Assembly: GCF_000337775.1 (NCBI RefSeq)
Contig: NZ_AOLQ01000042.1
Location: 124,001 to 188,000 of the forward strand
Length of the DNA: 64,000 bases
Reading direction: 5' to 3'
DNA from: Haloarcula vallismortis ATCC 29715
Lineage (GTDB): Archaea; Halobacteriota; Halobacteria; Halobacteriales; Haloarculaceae
This document shows positions 30,960-45,375 of the stretch, piece by piece (position 1 is the stretch's first letter; each line of letters opens with the position of its first letter). A program made the translations under genes and the position numbers. Under the pieces are notes generated by a model. The model worked only from the letters and a program-made list of their open reading frames with translations, made no database searches and had not been told where the DNA came from.

Positions 30960-31940
30960 ATGACATACAAAATCGTCGTCTCTGACACCAAGGTACTGGA
31001 CGGGGAGACACGGGCGGCGGTGCTGGGCGCGGTTGATGCGACTGTCGAGACGATAGCAGCGAAAGAGCCGGCGGCCGTCGCACGCGCAGTTGACGGTGCG
31101 GACGCATTGATCGTCGATGCCGGAACGCAGGTCACGGCCGAGGTCATCGACGCGGCCGACTCGCTCCAGGTCGTGGGCCGGGCCGGCATCGGCGTGGACA
31201 ATATCGACGTACGGGCGGCGGTCGAAGCTGGTGTGGCGGTCGTCAACGTCCCGGACTACTCTGTCGAAGAGGTGTCGACCCACACGTTCGCACTCGTGCT
31301 TGCGTGCCTGCGGAAGATACCGACATTCGACCGGTCGGTCAAGAACGGCGAGTGGGAGTGGTCGGTCGGCCAGCCGATCCATCGCCTCGCCGGCAGTACT
31401 GTCGGCCTCGTCGCCTTCGGCAAGCTCGCCAGTCGGTTCGCCGCGAAGCTCCGGGGGTTCGATGTCGACGTCGTCGCCTACGACCCGTACGTGCCCGAGT
31501 ACCGGATGGGTGACCTCGGCGTCGAGTCAGCCACCTTCGAAACGCTGCTGGCCGACTCGGACATCATCTCCTTGCACGCACCGCTGACCGATGAGACGCG
31601 TGGGATGATTGACGCTGGTGCGCTCGACCGGATGCGCGACGACGCTCTGCTTGTGAACACAGCCAGGGGCGGGCTCGTCGACGAAACGGCGCTGTACGAC
31701 GCCCTCGTCAGCGGGGATCTCGGCGGGGCCGGACTGGACGTCCGCGAAGCGGAACCGCCCGGAGAGTCACCCCTCCATGACCTCGACAGCGTCGTCTGTA
31801 GCCCGCACGTCGCGTGGTATTCCGAGGCGTCCCGGGTCGAACTGACACAGACCGTGACCGAAGACGTCATTCGGGTACTGCGGGGCGAGGAGCCCGAGGA
31901 GCCCGAGAATCCCATCGACCCCGAGACCGGCTGGTTCTGA
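30960..31940 (+). CDS. D-isomer-specific 2-hydroxyacid dehydrogenase (CtBP-like)
   Basis: Encodes 326 residues, soluble NAD(P)-dependent oxidoreductase. The substrate domain comes first, then the Rossmann domain (STVGLVAFGKLASRFAAKLR). Catalytic residues: Arg in NTARGGLVD, Glu in DVREAEPPGESPL, His in CSPHVAWYSE. This matches the C-terminal-binding-protein-like branch of the D-2-hydroxyacid dehydrogenases. It resembles phosphoglycerate dehydrogenase SerA but has no ACT domain and no serine genes beside it. The true substrate is unknown. Confidence 0.9.
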   Translation: MTYKIVVSDTKVLDGETRAAVLGAVDATVETIAAKEPAAVARAVDGADALIVDAGTQVTAEVIDAADSLQVVGRAGIGVDNIDVRAAVEAGVAVVNVPDYSVEEVSTHTFALVLACLRKIPTFDRSVKNGEWEWSVGQPIHRLAGSTVGLVAFGKLASRFAAKLRGFDVDVVAYDPYVPEYRMGDLGVESATFETLLADSDIISLHAPLTDETRGMIDAGALDRMRDDALLVNTARGGLVDETALYDALVSGDLGGAGLDVREAEPPGESPLHDLDSVVCSPHVAWYSEASRVELTQTVTEDVIRVLRGEEPEEPENPIDPETGWF

Positions 31941-31962: not shown

Positions 31963-32886
31963 TCAGGTGTCGGCTGCGTCGAGGAGTCTGATTACAAGTT
32001 CAGCAGCTTCGACCGCTGTCTCGCCGAAGACGTAGGTTATCGGCTCGATACCGAACGCGCCGTTGTGGTAGATAACGCGTGGAACAGCGCCGCGTTCTCG
32101 GAAGGTGGCTTCGAGCCGTTCGTCACGGTCCTCGTAGCCGGCGTCGAACTGCAGCGGCTCGAAGCCTTGTTCCTGAGCGGCATCGAGAACGGCCTCGTGG
32201 GTCGTCAGATTGAGTGCCGCACGGCACGAGGAATCAACCGACATCGCGGTCAGTATCGTCCGTGCGACGTGTTCTGACGCGCCGAACTCGGGGTTCGACG
32301 GGACGTTGACCCGCCCCCGAAGGTCGTGAATCCGACCGGGGACTGCCGCCACGTCGAGCGCGTCTGCAGCATCCGGCAGCGCCATGCCGACGTTCATCCC
32401 CACGTTCGGGATGGCGTCCACGACGACAGCGCTGTCCGCCAGCAGTCGCGTGGCTCGCCGGACCGACGAAAGCACAGCCCGTTCCGCCTGTACTGCAGTG
32501 TCTGTCCCTCGAACGCAGAGGTCACAGCCCATCCCCTGCAGCGCCGGCATCTCCTCTTCGTGGACTGCACAGATGGGACCCCGGTCTTCGAACTCCCGTA
32601 CCAGAGCGAGCAGTTCGTTCAGCACCGCGTACTCGTCCATTTCGCCCGCGGTCAGTCCGTCAGCGATTCGCCCGATGGTCTGTTGCATCCGGGCGTCTTC
32701 CCGGAACCGCTCCTCGACAGTGACCGAGCCGCTGCCGTATTTGCTCACCGCGGCCTGTGTCACGCCGAGCTGGTCGGCAATCTCCTGTTGCGTCCAGCCC
32801 TCCTCGTCGAGTCTCGTGGCGAGCATTGCCCGGGCCGTCGGGAGAAATCGCTCGACCACAATTTCGCTTGGTAACTGCAGTGTCAT
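31963..32886 (-). CDS. thiR: ThiR-type regulator, helix-turn-helix plus ThiN domain
   Basis: Encodes 307 residues. The HTH is at about 30-55 (GWTQQEIADQLGVTQAAVSK). A middle segment has three Cys (PICAVHEEEM, then GCDLC), possibly a metal site. The C-terminal ThiN domain (about 135-305) contains VPGRIHDLRGRV and NPEFGASEHVA. Known relatives are archaeal ThiR, which repress thiamine genes when thiamine phosphate is bound to ThiN. It is divergent from tenA at 33091, 204 bases away, which supports a thiamine regulon. Confidence 0.88.
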   Translation of the reverse strand: MTLQLPSEIVVERFLPTARAMLATRLDEEGWTQQEIADQLGVTQAAVSKYGSGSVTVEERFREDARMQQTIGRIADGLTAGEMDEYAVLNELLALVREFEDRGPICAVHEEEMPALQGMGCDLCVRGTDTAVQAERAVLSSVRRATRLLADSAVVVDAIPNVGMNVGMALPDAADALDVAAVPGRIHDLRGRVNVPSNPEFGASEHVARTILTAMSVDSSCRAALNLTTHEAVLDAAQEQGFEPLQFDAGYEDRDERLEATFRERGAVPRVIYHNGAFGIEPITYVFGETAVEAAELVIRLLDAADT

Positions 32887-33032
32887 TACTGGAAATGACG
32901 GGCGTAGTTCGCTTAGCAGTTGGGACTACAGACGCTGTCGGTCGACTACGTGGTCGTGATTACGAGCAGCAGCAAAGTCAGTGAGACGCGCAGTGCCCAG
33001 AGCGCACTGCGTGCGTTGCTCATCCCCGCGCT

Positions 33033-33063
33033 TACAACCCAGTTGTATTAGCAGGATATAATA
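33033..33063 (+). promoter_or_regulatory. Possible ThiR operator and TATA box before tenA
   Basis: TACAAC, CCA, GTTGTA (33033-33047) is a perfect inverted repeat just upstream of the TATA-like GATATAATA at 33055-33063, 28 bases before tenA. Its position fits an operator for the adjacent regulator. The ThiR consensus is not known to me, and the arms are only six bases. Confidence 0.4.
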
Positions 33064-33090
33064 CGTCGGAGGTTGTTGTGTCGGCTATCA

Positions 33091-33750
33091 ATGGCGTTCA
33101 GCGACCACCTGCTTGACATCGGCGAGAACATCTGGGCGGCACAGAAAGGGCATCCGTTCGTCACGGAACTGGCAGAGGGAACGCTCGACGAAGCGGCGTT
33201 CGAGCACTGGATAAAACAGGACTACCGGTACCTGCAGGACTACGCACGGTTGTTCGCGCTCGCCGGCGCGACAGCAAACGACGAGTCGACCATGACGCAC
33301 CTGCTTGGGGTTGCCCATCAGGTGCTTGAGACCGAGATGGACCTGCACCGGGAGTTCGCGTCGGAGTACGATATCTCAGAGCGGGAACTGGAGGCGACCG
33401 AGAAGGCCCCGACCTGTCTGGCGTACACGAACTTCCTTGTCCGGACGGCCTACGAGGGCCACGAGGCGGAGATCGCCGCCGCGCTGTATCCCTGCATGCA
33501 GGGCTACCTCGACGTGGCCGAACATATGGCCGATTCGGCAGACGGCGACCACCAGTACACGCCGTTCATCGAGATGTACACCAGCGACGACTTCCGTGAG
33601 GCGACAGGCTGGTGTCGGGCGTACGTCGACCGCTGTGGGGAGCGGTATCCCGGTCAACACGACGCCATGGAAGACGCGTTTCTGACGAGCGCGAAGCTCG
33701 AACACCGGTTCTGGGAGATGGCCTACACGCAGGAGGGATGGGAGCTATGA
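33091..33750 (+). CDS. tenA: TenA, thiaminase II (Cys type)
   Basis: Encodes 219 residues, all-helical. Cys135 in ALYPCMQGY is at the catalytic Cys position of Bacillus TenA, and Asp44 (KQDYRYLQDY) and Glu204 (AKLEHRFWEM) match the other active-site acids. It hydrolyses aminopyrimidine from degraded thiamine to HMP for salvage. The Met at 33091 is preferred over one six codons upstream. First gene of the tenA-tenA-symporter operon, with a 4-base overlap with the next gene. Confidence 0.93.
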   Translation: MAFSDHLLDIGENIWAAQKGHPFVTELAEGTLDEAAFEHWIKQDYRYLQDYARLFALAGATANDESTMTHLLGVAHQVLETEMDLHREFASEYDISERELEATEKAPTCLAYTNFLVRTAYEGHEAEIAAALYPCMQGYLDVAEHMADSADGDHQYTPFIEMYTSDDFREATGWCRAYVDRCGERYPGQHDAMEDAFLTSAKLEHRFWEMAYTQEGWEL

Positions 33751-34511
33751 CGGCCGAGACGTACGAAGCCTACACCGACCGCGTCGCCGACCCCCGGTTC
33801 ACCGACTGGCTCCGCGACCAGAGTCAGCCGGACTGGGACGCTGCCGTCGAACACCCCTTCATCGAGGAACTCGGGACCGGCACGCTCGACGAAGACGCGT
33901 TCGCCGCATATCTGGTGCAGGACTACGCCTTCGTCGATGAACTCGTCGGCACGTTCGGCCACGCGGTCGGGCAGGCCCCGGATATGGCCGCCAAACGACA
34001 GTTTGTGGAGTTCCTCGATACCGTGACCGACGAGGAAGACGACTACTTCGAGCGGTCGTTCGATGCGCTGGGCGTTTCGGAGTCACGTTGGCAGGACCCC
34101 GAGCCGACACCGGCGACTGCGGCGTTCGTCGACCTACTCGGCCGCGCCGCACGAGAAGGCGGGTACGCCGAGACGCTGGCTGTGCTCGTGCCCGCCGAAT
34201 GGGTATACGAATCCTGGGCGACAGCGGCCGCGGACACCCACGGCGACCCAGACGGTGACGGCCTGCCCAGCGCCGGGATGGGACTGCCGTTCTACTTTGC
34301 CGAGTGGGTGGACCTCCACGCCGTCGATTCGTTCGTCGCGTTTGTCGACTGGCTCCGGGGCGAACTCGATGCTGTCGGGCCGACGCTTTCCCCTCGACGG
34401 GAGGCCCGCGTCGCGTCGCTGTTCGACCGGACGGTCACGCTCGAACGGCAGTTCTTCGAAACGGCCTACGAAGGGACGCAGGCGACGGCCGACGCCGAGG
34501 TGAGCCCGTAG
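33747..34511 (+). CDS. TenA-like protein lacking the active-site Cys (TenA_E type)
   Basis: Encodes 254 residues. Same fold as the preceding gene, but the segment aligning with ALYPCMQGY reads VLVPAEWVYE, so Cys is replaced by Ala150 with Glu151 beside it, like the TenA_E family that salvages formylamino- or aminomethyl-pyrimidine in plants and bacteria. The start overlaps the tenA stop (ATGA). The frame is open further upstream inside tenA (to 33612), but the ATG at 33747 fits best. Confidence 0.9.
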   Translation: MTAETYEAYTDRVADPRFTDWLRDQSQPDWDAAVEHPFIEELGTGTLDEDAFAAYLVQDYAFVDELVGTFGHAVGQAPDMAAKRQFVEFLDTVTDEEDDYFERSFDALGVSESRWQDPEPTPATAAFVDLLGRAAREGGYAETLAVLVPAEWVYESWATAAADTHGDPDGDGLPSAGMGLPFYFAEWVDLHAVDSFVAFVDWLRGELDAVGPTLSPRREARVASLFDRTVTLERQFFETAYEGTQATADAEVSP

Positions 34512-36020
34512 ATGGTCTCTTCGGCAACCGTCCTCGCTCTGACTGCGGCGACTGTGCTCGTGTTCACGGGCGTCGGCCTCTTCGCCGCCCGCGGCCGCAT
34601 CGACTCGGTGGAAACGTACATCTCTGCTCGTGACTCCGCCGGCAGCGGAACCCTCGCTGCGACCGTCATCGCGTCGATGATGGGCGTCTGGATTCTGCTG
34701 AGTCCGGCCGAGGCCGGGGCTGCCTTCGGCGGGCTGCCCGCCGTTCTGGGCTATGCCATCGGCAGCGCGATTCCGCTCGTCCTCTTTATTCCGGTTGGCG
34801 CTCGCATCCGTGAGGTAATGCCCGCCGGCCACTCGCTGACGGAGTTCGCCTACGCCCGCTTTGGCTCCGGGATGTACCTGCTCGTCTTGCTGGTCTCGGT
34901 GTTCTACATGTTCATCTTCCTCGCCGCGGAGATGACCGGTATTGCCGGCGCGCTCGCACTCGTCGCGGACGTGCCCCTCTGGCAGACCTCGCTGCTCATC
35001 GGCGGCTTTGTCCTCGTCTACACGACCTACGGTGGCCTGCTCGCCAGCATCGTCACCGACACGGTCCAGACGCTGGTCATCCTCCCGCTGCTGGCCATTG
35101 GGTTCGGCGGCGCGCTGCTCTCGCTCGGTGGCACGAGCGAATTCCACGCGACGGTGGTGTCGGCCGACCCGACGCTTCTGGACCCCGGCTTCGGCCCCGG
35201 TCTGGAGTTTGGGCTCTACGTCGCCTTCGCGCTCCTCGGGGCAAATATGCTGAATCAGGGTGTCTGGCAGCGAGTGTACGCCGCTGACGGTGAGGACACG
35301 CTCCGGCGCGGCATGGGCATCGCCGCCGTCGTCGTCGTGCCGATGCTCCTGCTGTCCGGCCTGTTCGGCATCGCTGCCGCGGGGCTGGGCCTCACGGAAT
35401 CCGGCTCCGCCAGCATCGCCTTCTTCCTCGTGGTTGCAGAGGCGTTCCCGACGTGGGTGACCCTCGCCATCGTCGTCCTCGCCGTGTTGCTGGTGATGAG
35501 TTCGGCTGACACGATGTTCAACGCTATCGCCAGCGTCGTCACCGCCGACCTTGCCCGACTGCTCGACGACCCTGACCAGCAAACCCTGTGGCTCGGAGGC
35601 CGCGGGCTGACTGTCGCTGTCGCGCTCGCCGCGATATTCATCGGCGCACAGGGATACAGCGTCCTCCAGTTGTTCCTGACAGCAGATTTGCTTGCTGCCG
35701 GCGTCTTCGTGCCCTTCCTCGCCGGCCTCTACACCGAGCGACTCACCGGCCCGGGTGCGATGCTCTCTGGCATCGCCGGCCTAGTCGTCGGATTCGTCTA
35801 CTTCCCGTCGCTCCGTGGCCTCGTCGCCGCCGTGCCAGGCGTCGGGAGTATGTTGCCAGCGCCGTCGTTCTTGATCGCCTTCGCCGGCGCGACGCTCATC
35901 TCGGCCGCCCTCACCGTGATTGCGACGCTGCTGGGCGGAGCCGATGCTGACCTCGATAGTCTCGGGCGAGAAGTCCGCGCGCTCGATGATCCGATGGCCG
36001 ACGGAGGGGCCGAGCAATGA
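34512..36020 (+). CDS. Sodium:solute symporter family transporter
   Basis: Encodes 502 residues with about 13 helices of the SSS fold. It follows directly on the tenA-like gene (start abuts the stop), so it is in the thiamine operon and may import thiamine, HMP or a thiamine breakdown product; this is inferred from context only. A 42-residue membrane protein follows, overlapping by 4 bases. Confidence 0.9.
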   Translation: MVSSATVLALTAATVLVFTGVGLFAARGRIDSVETYISARDSAGSGTLAATVIASMMGVWILLSPAEAGAAFGGLPAVLGYAIGSAIPLVLFIPVGARIREVMPAGHSLTEFAYARFGSGMYLLVLLVSVFYMFIFLAAEMTGIAGALALVADVPLWQTSLLIGGFVLVYTTYGGLLASIVTDTVQTLVILPLLAIGFGGALLSLGGTSEFHATVVSADPTLLDPGFGPGLEFGLYVAFALLGANMLNQGVWQRVYAADGEDTLRRGMGIAAVVVVPMLLLSGLFGIAAAGLGLTESGSASIAFFLVVAEAFPTWVTLAIVVLAVLLVMSSADTMFNAIASVVTADLARLLDDPDQQTLWLGGRGLTVAVALAAIFIGAQGYSVLQLFLTADLLAAGVFVPFLAGLYTERLTGPGAMLSGIAGLVVGFVYFPSLRGLVAAVPGVGSMLPAPSFLIAFAGATLISAALTVIATLLGGADADLDSLGREVRALDDPMADGGAEQ

Positions 36021-36145
36021 CGCCGTCAGCCATCGCCCCTCTCGCCGCGCTCGGGTCGACGGCGTTCGCGGCGCTGGCTTGGGGGTCGATTCTGCTCGTC
36101 CTCGGTGTGTTTCTCGCTGTTGGCTGGCTGGTCCTGACCGAGTAG
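36017..36145 (+). CDS. Symporter small accessory protein, 42 aa
   Basis: Encodes 42 residues: MTPSAIAPLAALGSTAFAAL, then one hydrophobic helix (SILLVLGVFLAVGWLVLTE). It overlaps the symporter stop by 4 bases (ATGA), so it is translated with it. Small single-span proteins of this type accompany SSS symporters in archaea and bacteria and are annotated as symporter accessory proteins; their role is not established. The overlap and hydrophobic helix make the gene convincing despite its size. Confidence 0.75.
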   Translation: MTPSAIAPLAALGSTAFAALAWGSILLVLGVFLAVGWLVLTE

Positions 36146-36223: not shown

Positions 36224-36619
36224 ATGCAGACCTTCGTGCTCGCGACGAACTCCGGGACAGTCAGCGAAACGCTGTGTTCGTACCTCGAAGGTGTTCTCGA
36301 CCCGGACGACAGCGTCTACGCGGTCAACTCACAGCCGGGCGGGGACAGCACGGAACCAGAGGCGGTCGCCGACGGGAAGGCAGCGCTCGAAGTCGTCTCG
36401 GACCGACTCGGCGATCAGGTGTCCGTCGAAACATACCAGATAATACGGGGGAACAGTCCGGCGACGGACATCTTCGACATCGCCGAGGAAGTCGACGCCG
36501 ACGAACTCGTCATCGGCGTCCGAAAGCGAAGCCAGACCGACCGGCTCATCTTCGGCAGCGTCGCACAGGACATCATGCGACAGTCAGACTATCCGATGCG
36601 GGTCGTGCCTCGGGAGTGA
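36224..36619 (+). CDS. Universal stress protein (UspA family)
   Basis: Encodes 131 residues. Usp fold with the ATP-binding type end motif GVRKRSQTDRLIFGSVAQDI (G-x2-G-x9-G type here read as IGVRKRS...GSVAQDIMR). The central ADELVIGV is typical. Cytoplasmic stress protein of unknown ligand. Independent gene upstream of the proteasome genes, convergent with them. Confidence 0.9.
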   Translation: MQTFVLATNSGTVSETLCSYLEGVLDPDDSVYAVNSQPGGDSTEPEAVADGKAALEVVSDRLGDQVSVETYQIIRGNSPATDIFDIAEEVDADELVIGVRKRSQTDRLIFGSVAQDIMRQSDYPMRVVPRE

Positions 36620-39379: not shown

Positions 39380-39967
39380 ATGATACTCTCAGATGCGGAT
39401 ATTCTCCGGCGACTGGAACAGGGTGACCTCGTCGTCGAACCGCTCGACGACCCGGACATCCAGATCCAGCCGGCCAGCGTGGACCTCCGACTCGGCCGGG
39501 AGTTCCTGGAGTTCCAGCACGCCAACATCCCCTGTATTCACCCGAATTCCGAAGACGAAGTCGCCGACTACGTCGAGGAAACCGTCATCGAGGAGGGTGG
39601 GGAGTTCATCCTCCACCCCGGCGACTTCGTGCTGGGGACGACCCACGAGCGCGTCGCCATCCCCGACGACCTCATCGCCCACGTCGAGGGCCGCTCGTCG
39701 CTGGGACGGCTTGCGATTGTGGTCCACGCAACGGCCGGCCTGTGTGACCCCGGCTACGAGGGCCAGATCACGCTTGAACTATCGAACCTCGGCACCGCGC
39801 CGGTCGCACTGACGCCCGGCATGCGAATTTCGCAGCTAACGTTCACAGAACTCAAGACGCCTGCTGACCGGCCGTATGGGGCCGAGCGCGGCTCGAAGTA
39901 CCAAGGTCAGTCCGGGCCGCAAGCGAGCAAGATACAGGGAGACAGAGAATTCGGAGGCGACCAGTAG
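39380..39967 (+). CDS. dcd: dCTP deaminase
   Basis: Encodes 195 residues. Converts dCTP to dUTP for dTTP synthesis. The motif [18 protein letters not shown], then [15 protein letters not shown] contains the catalytic Glu, and the Ser/Arg of GRSSLGR bind phosphate. [11 protein letters not shown] is the typical N-terminal block. Directly followed without a gap by an HTH-ThiN gene and a methyltransferase gene, an odd combination. Confidence 0.96.
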
Positions 39968-40864
39968 ATGCGGTTCATCGAGGAGATCGTCGTCGACGAC
40001 TTCCTGCCGACGTTTCGCTCGCTGCTGGCCGACGCCCTCAGGGAGCGCGGGCTGACGCAGTCCGAAGTCGCGGACCTGCTCGGCATCAGCCAGAGCGCGG
40101 TCTCGAAGTACGTCCACGGCGACGTGGCGCGCCACGACGACCTGCTGGCCCATCGCGGACTAGAGGAGCTGGTCGAGCGGCTGGCTGACGGGCTGGCAGA
40201 CGGCGATATGAGTCCCGTCCAGGCGCTGGTCGAAACGGAGGTGTTCATCCGCGAACTCGAACATGGCGGCGTGCTCGCGCAGTTACACGAGGACGCGGTC
40301 CCGGAACTCGGCGACTACGACGACGAGTTCGCCGTCCACGACCCGGACTCACAGCTCCGGTCGGCCGAGCGGACGCTCGCCTCGGTGCGGCGCGGACTCA
40401 GCGTGCTCGAAAACACCAGCGGGTTCGCGACGCTCATTCCGGCGGTCGGGTCGAACCTCGTCCAGTGTCTCCCCGACGCCGACAGCATCGAGGACGTGGC
40501 CGCCGTTCCGGGGCGAATTCTCGACGTGAAAGGACGGGCAACGATTCCGGCAGACCCGGAGTTCGGCGTCAGCGAGCACGTCGCGACGCTGCTGCTTGCG
40601 GCGCGGGCCGCTGGGAGCGACGCCCGCGCCGTGTTGAACGTCCGGTACGACGACGGTGTCGTGAGGGCGTTGCAAGATGCGGGTCGGACCGTCGTCGAGT
40701 TCGACGCGGAAGAGAGCGTCGAGCCGGCTGTCGCGGCCGCAATGGCTGACGACCCAGCGGCCGACGTGCTGTATCACACCGGCGCGATGGGAATCGAGCC
40801 GGTCGTGTACCTGCTCGGGGACGACGCTGTGTCGGTCGCCGAAACGGCCCGCGAGATCCTGTGA
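39968..40864 (+). CDS. Second HTH-ThiN protein, ThiR paralogue
   Basis: Encodes 298 residues. HTH at about 28-52 (GLTQSEVADLLGISQSAVSK), middle segment, and ThiN domain with VPGRILDVKGRA and DPEFGVSEHVA, as in ThiR at 31963. Unlike ThiR it has no Cys in the middle segment where ThiR has GCDLC. It starts at the base after the dcd stop and overlaps the methyltransferase by 4 bases. It may respond to a different phosphorylated ligand. Function inferred only. Confidence 0.88.
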   Translation: MRFIEEIVVDDFLPTFRSLLADALRERGLTQSEVADLLGISQSAVSKYVHGDVARHDDLLAHRGLEELVERLADGLADGDMSPVQALVETEVFIRELEHGGVLAQLHEDAVPELGDYDDEFAVHDPDSQLRSAERTLASVRRGLSVLENTSGFATLIPAVGSNLVQCLPDADSIEDVAAVPGRILDVKGRATIPADPEFGVSEHVATLLLAARAAGSDARAVLNVRYDDGVVRALQDAGRTVVEFDAEESVEPAVAAAMADDPAADVLYHTGAMGIEPVVYLLGDDAVSVAETAREIL

Positions 40865-44352: not shown

Positions 44353-45288
44353 TCAGTCGTCAGCAGGGGAGGCCGCGTCGCGACTCGTGACATCGACCGG
44401 TTCGGCGTCGACTTCGAGCTCATCGAGCGCGACCTGCGCGGCGCGCTTGCCGGAGACGAGCATGGCACCGAACGTCGGGCCCATGCGCGGGAGGCCGTAG
44501 GTCGTCGCCGTCGCCATGCCGGTGACGACGAGGCCGTCGTGGGCGAGACCGGTGTGTTCGACAACGGCGTCCTCGCTCTCGCCGACCCACATCGAGTCGT
44601 GGCCGGGCGAGTCGTGGCCGGGCGCGCCGTAGGTGTCGTCGTCGGTCTGGTCCATGCCGCTGGCTTCGTCTTCGAGCCCCGGCGCGTTGAGGACGCCGCG
44701 CTCGTCGAGTTTCTTGACGGCCATCGCGTCGTGGCCAGTCGCGTCGATGACGAGGTCCGCCTCGACGGCGATGGGGTCGACACAGGTGATTTCGCGCGGG
44801 AGCGCATGGACCGGCGTCCAATTCATCACGATGCCGCCAACGCGGTGGTCTTCGCGGATGACGATGTCGGTGAACTCCGTCATGTTCTGCATCTTCGCGC
44901 CGGCGTCGCAGGCGGCCTTGATCAGCCCGGAGCAGGCTTCGGGCCCGTTGGCGACGTAGAGCCCCTCGCTGTCCTTGGACTGCTTGTGGTCGACCGCGAG
45001 TTCGTCGAGCACCTGCTGAGCCGGGTCACGCACTGTGACCTTGTTCATCAGGAAGCCGCCGAGCCAGAAGCCGCCGCCGAGGTAGTTGTTCTTCTCGACG
45101 ACCATCACCTGGACGCCGCGCTCGGCGAGTTCCTTCGCGGCCATCAGCCCCGACGGGCCGCCGCCGACGATGATGACATCGGAGTCCGAGAAGTCCATGA
45201 ACTCCTCGGTCCACTCCTGCCCGATGGCGCGTGTGACTTCCGCCTCGCCGACGTCGCTGAACTGTTCGAATGAGTCGGAATCGCTCAT
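44353..45288 (-). CDS. thi4: Thi4, thiamine thiazole synthase, suicide (Cys) type
   Basis: Encodes 311 residues. Makes the thiazole phosphate of thiamine from NAD and glycine. The FAD/NAD-type dinucleotide motif is [16 protein letters not shown], followed by [12 protein letters not shown]. Cys169 in [12 protein letters not shown] aligns with yeast THI4 Cys205, which donates its own sulfur and is inactivated, whereas methanogen enzymes have His there. The Met at 45288 is chosen over 45354. An ACCACC/GGTGGT dyad brackets the promoter. Confidence 0.93.
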
Positions 45289-45314
45289 ACCACCTAGTGA
45301 TATTTTGCGGTGGT
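45289..45314 (-). promoter_or_regulatory. ACCACC/GGTGGT dyad around the thi4 promoter
   Basis: ACCACC at 45289-45294 and GGTGGT at 45309-45314 flank the AT-rich AAAATATC (45299-45306, minus strand), immediately before the thi4 start. It is a possible operator, perhaps for ThiR, but it does not resemble the dyad before tenA. Confidence 0.4.
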
Positions 45315-45375
45315 ACATAGTCGTTCTGATGCAGAGACCGGTCGCTGCGCACACAGTATCGGGGGAGAGGAACCC

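Follow-up and report, generated by a model that had tools for sequence, protein, structure and literature searches.

A stretch of 64,000 nucleotides from Haloarcula vallismortis ATCC 29715 (contig NZ_AOLQ01000042.1, positions 124,001 to 188,000, forward strand; hereafter the window) holds, between 31963 and 36145, a compact group of genes which is probably a cassette for the uptake and salvage of thiamine pyrimidines, controlled by a regulator of the ThiR type and equipped with a symporter resembling ThiV/SSSP. The sequences themselves show that the gene order is conserved, that two classes of TenA are present, that the promoter box recurs at thiC and thi4, that bacterial relatives of the symporter are under riboswitch control, and that a microprotein is under selection. 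The initial annotation had placed here reading frames that overlap or abut one another and face a ThiR-type gene, and had read them as a thiamine salvage module; the frames do lie at these positions, with the ThiR-type gene divergent, and the idea that a ThiR-type regulator controls an operon for thiamine-pyrimidine salvage is strengthened by the presence of both TenA classes and of the box common to thiC and thi4. The cassette comprises:

31963..32886, minus strand: ThiR1, regulator with a helix-turn-helix (HTH) and a ThiN domain (PF10120, 176.9 bits; HTH_3)
33033..33059, plus strand: candidate ThiR-type box, made of the TACAACCCAGTTGTA dyad (33033-33047) plus a 3' extension
33091..33750, plus strand: tenA_C, thiaminase II type with the active-site Cys (TENA_THI-4, 155.8 bits; TIGR04306)
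33747..34511, plus strand: tenA_E, a TenA with Ala-Glu replacing the Cys (PF03070, TENA_THI-4, 96.9 bits)
34512..36020, plus strand: predicted ThiV/SSSP-like sodium:solute symporter (SSS) (SSF, PF00474, 84.4 bits)
36017..36145, plus strand: single-span microprotein of 42 residues (translational coupling to the symporter, conservation)

The frames are tightly packed: tenA_C and tenA_E overlap by 4 bases, tenA_E and the symporter abut (0 bases), and the symporter and the microprotein overlap by 4 bases. This organization was followed in 32 genomes of the same genus. A true relative of the symporter occurs in 27 of them, 15 of a near class (86-100% identity, window genome included) and 12 of a mid class (50-54%); the remaining five have only a symporter paralogue of about 30% identity. 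All 15 near-class loci possess tenA_C, tenA_E, the symporter and the microprotein, and both tenA genes are found in 11 of the 12 mid-class loci, tenA_E being absent from G009. As the order tenA_C-tenA_E-SSS is maintained in 26 of the 27 loci and ThiR1 lies divergent beside tenA_C in all 27, the arrangement is not due to chance. The genus holds two divergent versions of the cassette (loci L019-L030 and L005-L018), with symporters 50-54% and tenA_C about 43-46% identical; the two versions together were found in none of the 32 genomes.

ThiR1 has the composition that defines a ThiR, i.e. an HTH plus a ThiN domain. It is present in the 27 genomes carrying the symporter and in none of the five others, which indicates that it goes with the cassette; a second regulator, ThiR2, about 40% identical to ThiR1, is present in all 32. 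The ThiR-like regulator initially annotated stands as to its domains, but it is one of two ThiR, this copy being the cassette-linked one. Such a cassette-tied ThiR paralogue is probably new. Archaeal ThiR regulators are reportedly the subject of Rodionov 2017 and Hwang 2017, and the regulon tables of the former may already list the operon. Both works are named in PMC12029414. The ThiR2 gene, 4 kb from the operon, directly follows a dCTP deaminase gene (39380-39967).

The distinction between the two TenA holds down to single residues. The tenA_C product (P0002) exceeds the cut-off of the thiaminase II model TIGR04306 (162.1 vs 130 bits), and the tenA_E product (P0003) remains below it (93.4 vs 130 bits). 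After removal of the matches shorter than 150 residues or containing stops, tenA_C relatives display Cys at the column of B. subtilis Cys135 in 72 cases out of 72, whereas tenA_E relatives have Ala (52) or Val (1) at this column, followed by Glu in 53 out of 53: the labels “Cys type” and “Glu type” proposed at the outset were right. All the relatives aligned, of tenA_C and tenA_E alike, retain Asp44 and Glu205. TenA_E is defined by the absence of the Cys and by two conserved Glu (PMC5635689), which fits our second enzyme with its Glu at 136, perhaps the counterpart of Glu129 in P. furiosus, and at 205. TenA_C was reported to turn aminopyrimidine (AmMP) into hydroxymethylpyrimidine (HMP), and TenA_E to act on formylaminopyrimidine (FAMP) (PMC10470507, PMC5635689), the hydrolysis of FAMP by TenA_E being shown for plants (PMC5635689, citing Zallot 2014). 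A division of labour is plausible, in which the Glu type would deformylate or deaminate and the Cys type would finish the conversion to HMP. The nearest solved chains of the tenA_E product, 1z72 and 2a6b, are TenA of Streptococcus pneumoniae and not plant enzymes. In an ocean survey, archaeal TenA_E outnumbered TenA_C sequences and came largely from Halobacteria and Haloferacales (PMC10470507).

The candidate box of the operon sits just upstream of a TATA-like element (33057-33063, by visual reading), which it touches. Its position is kept in the 15 near-class promoters, with letters of the TACAAC-N3-GTTGTA kind, and the 12 mid-class promoters all contain TAYAA-N5-TTRTA or a form one letter off; the ATG of tenA_C is kept in all 27 aligned promoters, at a fixed distance of 31 or 27 bases from the box end. 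A 27-column matrix, derived from the 12 mid-class promoters only (two sites being extracted with the pattern loosened by one letter), ranks the operon site top in the 64 kb (20.6), the runner-up at a separate place being the start of thi4 (9.9); on the 4.3-kb thiC locus the best place is the start of thiC (16.8), and on the ThiDN locus (L003) the matrix gave no convincing box (best 5.9). In the 3.92-Mb genome, a 19-base pattern, one mismatch being tolerated, matches at thiC, at the operon and at thi4, and nowhere else. Two other patterns were set aside: the exact dyad TACAACNNNGTTGTA, found at one genomic place, is too strict for a regulon, and the looser TAYAANNNNNTTRTA, found at five, is too loose. 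The thi4 box is kept in the 14 other near-class genomes (15/15 with the window genome), and a related dyad lies upstream of thiC in all 21 thiC stretches examined in the genus. Judged by these matches, the box links the operon to thiC and thi4 within the genus, the picture being mixed in other genera. The other features of the window to be considered are:

39968..40864, plus strand: ThiR2, second regulator with HTH and ThiN, outside the operon (PF10120, 179.3 bits)
44353..45288, minus strand: thi4, thiazole synthase (PF01946, 201.2 bits), predicted to be co-regulated with the operon, with its ATG at 45288
45289..45315, minus strand: candidate ThiR-type box abutting the thi4 start (matrix and pattern matches)
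30960-31940, plus strand: D-2-hydroxyacid dehydrogenase gene, before ThiR1
36224-36619: universal stress protein gene, after the microprotein, with proteasome subunit genes beyond

The symporter was initially regarded as a transporter of undescribed substrate. This holds only in part, the kind of transporter being known: by its sequence it resembles ThiV/SSSP and would be linked to thiamine. ThiV/SSSP belongs to the SSS transporters, is associated with thiamine pyrophosphate (TPP) riboswitches and probably carries HMP in SAR11, whose whole cells displayed an uptake specific for HMP (PMC11452348). It is known from SAR11, Methylobacillus and algae (PMC11452348, PMC4260697), the eukaryotic SSSP being proposed as a carrier of thiamine or HMP, and a clade of SSSP from Euryarchaeota-Halobacteria, without detected riboswitches, was already noted in 2014 (PMC4260697). 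A scan of the window returned no Rfam family at the gathering score, hence no TPP riboswitch by this test. Bacterial relatives behave otherwise. The one of Halomonas (L037, 39% identity) has a TPP riboswitch (65.1 bits) immediately before its start. When 15 loci chosen from 80 fetched bacterial ones were added—14 with records titled Halomonas, Vreelandella, Billgrantia or Halovibrio, and one Competibacteraceae metagenome-assembled genome—the riboswitch was found directly upstream in 15 of the 16, L149 being without it at the gathering score. As predicted from these matches, the same symporter line is under thiamine control in another domain of life. In Halomonas and kin (the L097-L174 sample and L037) the aptamer match extends about 10 bases into the predicted SSS reading frame, which suggests either a control of the translation start or a mis-set start.

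At the residue level, the Ser-Ser of the sodium site is kept at the columns of SiaT 342/343, a pair which we take to bind sodium. The signature reported for ThiV consists, in SiaT numbering, of Tyr78, an acidic residue at 139 and Phe254 (PMC11452348). In a low-identity alignment of nine sequences, position 139 is Glu in eight and Asn in one, position 78 is Ala with an invariant Tyr at 82, and position 254 is Asn or His, never Phe.

Behind the symporter, the microprotein starts inside the region of the symporter stop codon in the 15 near-class loci. For 14 of these 15 sequences (L018, whose open reading frame (ORF) is shorter, was omitted) omega is about 0.12, and codons with a single change between pairs are mostly synonymous (986 vs 275). 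In other genera, a single-span ORF of 28-75 residues was counted as coupled if its start fell between 14 bases ahead of the symporter stop and 6 bases past it. Such an ORF is present behind the symporter in 36 of the 70 loci, versus 3 of 397 controls, i.e. other ORFs of at least 200 residues in the same loci. With such an omega and such an excess over the controls, this tiny ORF behaves as a gene. Many of the coupled ORFs carry the signature FA-x-L-x-WGS, borne by the window protein as F-A-x-L-x-W-G-S. The protein gave no match to Pfam at E 0.001, nor to NCBIfam up to E 10, NF038354 included, in searches where the HMMER filters drop weak matches; no microprotein was seen in the 12 mid-class loci, and no coupled single-span ORF was visible by eye in the paralogous SSS loci L031-L033. 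A precedent for small partners of SSS exists in Paracoccus, where NF038354, a “putative transporter small subunit” of 43 residues, directly follows an SSS gene (L262-L264). Its coupling and conservation make it most likely that the microprotein serves the symporter as a small subunit, stabilising or tuning it; as a symporter-coupled protein it is probably new.

Beyond the genus, the symporter (E 1e-40 or better) occurs in 85 of 292 sampled genomes of the class, representing 30 of 77 genera; 70 of these loci lie outside the genus. There, tenA is found upstream of the symporter in 47 loci: both genes in 26, tenA_C only in 19 and tenA_E only in two. Within the stretches of about 8 kb that were examined, 11 of the 70 loci have a ThiR1-like gene (52-63% identity) no more than 4.5 kb from the symporter start. 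The box matrix reaches a score of at least 10 in 15 of the 23 loci without tenA, in 6 of the 47 with tenA and in 14 of 337 stretches lying before other genes; when the columns of the matrix were shuffled, next to no such scores were obtained. Seven of the tenA-less loci (L221, L225, L227, L228, L234, L238 and L248) have in common a site of the GAT(T/C)ACCCGGTTATA type, located 50-70 bases upstream, which may be a variant of the box peculiar to their lineage. The idea that tenA-less loci adjoin thi4 or thiC was dropped, tblastn having given neither.

What could such a cassette bring to its host? The genome encodes ThiC, Thi4 and ThiDN, so that the host should make thiamine itself, and with thiC at hand salvage is an economy rather than the sole source of pyrimidine: the cassette most likely serves to spare a costly precursor. 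Within the genus, 21 of the 32 genomes have thiC and 20 of these 21 also carry the cassette; among the 11 without a thiC match, seven carry it (two of the seven being only 71-80% complete) and four have neither.

Several observations weigh against our proposal of a ThiR-controlled salvage cassette, or at least narrow it. The cassette accompanies thiC in nearly all thiC-bearing genomes and is missing from four thiC-less ones, so it is no replacement for a lost synthesis of HMP. The signature of the SAR11 HMP symporter ThiV is only partly present, and 23 of the 70 symporter loci of other genera are devoid of tenA. As to the box, the 19-base pattern was devised once the operon and thiC sites were known, which leaves thi4 as the sole independent match, and its reversed control gave one match per strand; since only 6 of the 47 tenA-bearing loci outside the genus reach a matrix score of 10, the box is unproven at the scale of the class.

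These points bear directly on other explanations. The tenA-less loci, 15 of which have a box scoring at least 10, would suit a symporter that carries thiamine or its thiazole part, TenA acting on internally damaged thiamine and the neighbourhood reflecting shared regulation only; the bacterial riboswitches are as compatible with thiamine as with a pyrimidine, and eukaryotic SSSP was proposed for either (PMC4260697). We nevertheless consider this unlikely, since the symporter is preceded by tenA in 47 of the 70 loci of other genera and in all 27 of the genus, and since the uptake measured for the SAR11 relative was HMP-specific (PMC11452348).

The high frequency of thiC among the owners of the cassette, most of which can make HMP, could also evoke a detoxification or repair unit, clearing thiamine breakdown products or antivitamin pyrimidines without feeding synthesis. 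This seems very improbable: a box common to the biosynthetic thiC and thi4 is expected of supply and not of defence, and the operon persists in seven of the 11 genomes without a thiC match, even if two of these are incomplete. That the symporter would transport an unrelated solute, e.g. proline, and belong to the operon by chance finds an echo in the name “sodium:proline symporter” given to relatives in PLSDB and in weak PutP and PanF model matches, far below cut-offs; it is hardly credible, given that 26 of the 27 loci of the genus keep the gene order and that TPP riboswitches precede relatives of the symporter in bacteria, another domain of life.

The salvage cassette we favour would work as follows. 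ThiR1, and possibly ThiR2 too, would repress the operon when thiamine phosphates are abundant, by binding the box that sits at its core promoter. When these are scarce, the symporter would import, together with sodium, HMP and/or AmMP and FAMP, which TenA_E and TenA_C, judging by their active sites, would hydrolyse to HMP. ThiDN, encoded elsewhere, is expected from pathway knowledge, the genes being present, to phosphorylate HMP and to couple it with the thiazole that Thi4 makes; the 42-residue protein would assist the symporter as its small subunit. A further proposal, rather doubtful at this stage, is that of a two-component SSS transporter in which the FA-x-L-x-WGS microprotein is a working subunit, setting specificity or shut-off, while ThiR1 is a cassette-bound sensor of a ligand of its own, e.g. 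a pyrimidine phosphate. If so, uptake would be adjusted independently of the general regulon of ThiR2.

In the literature searched, subscription papers being mostly outside its reach, we found no published haloarchaeal tenA-tenA-symporter operon nor this microprotein. The novelty looks to lie in the arrangement of the cassette, in its ThiR1 and in the microprotein, the family of the importer being already known. Compared with ThiV/SSSP, the symporter shares the SSS family, an expression controlled by thiamine (here predicted) and the neighbourhood of tenA, reported in some Pelagibacterales (PMC10881298); it differs by a ThiR-type box where no riboswitch was found, by the trailing microprotein and by the partial signature. 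The enzymes agree with known TenA_C and TenA_E in Cys135 or its replacement and in the conserved Glu residues (PMC5635689, PMC10470507, PMC10277260), but here both classes are adjacent, with their 4-base overlap, and the Glu enzyme is nearest to TenA of S. pneumoniae. ThiR1 has the N-terminal HTH and C-terminal ThiN of archaeal ThiR, and a candidate box common to thiC and thi4; unlike them, it is a second paralogue bound to a cassette. Finally, the microprotein recalls the NF038354 system, a single-span protein of about 43 residues directly behind an SSS gene, yet it gave no match to the NF038354 model up to E 10 and bears its own F-A-x-L-x-W-G-S motif.

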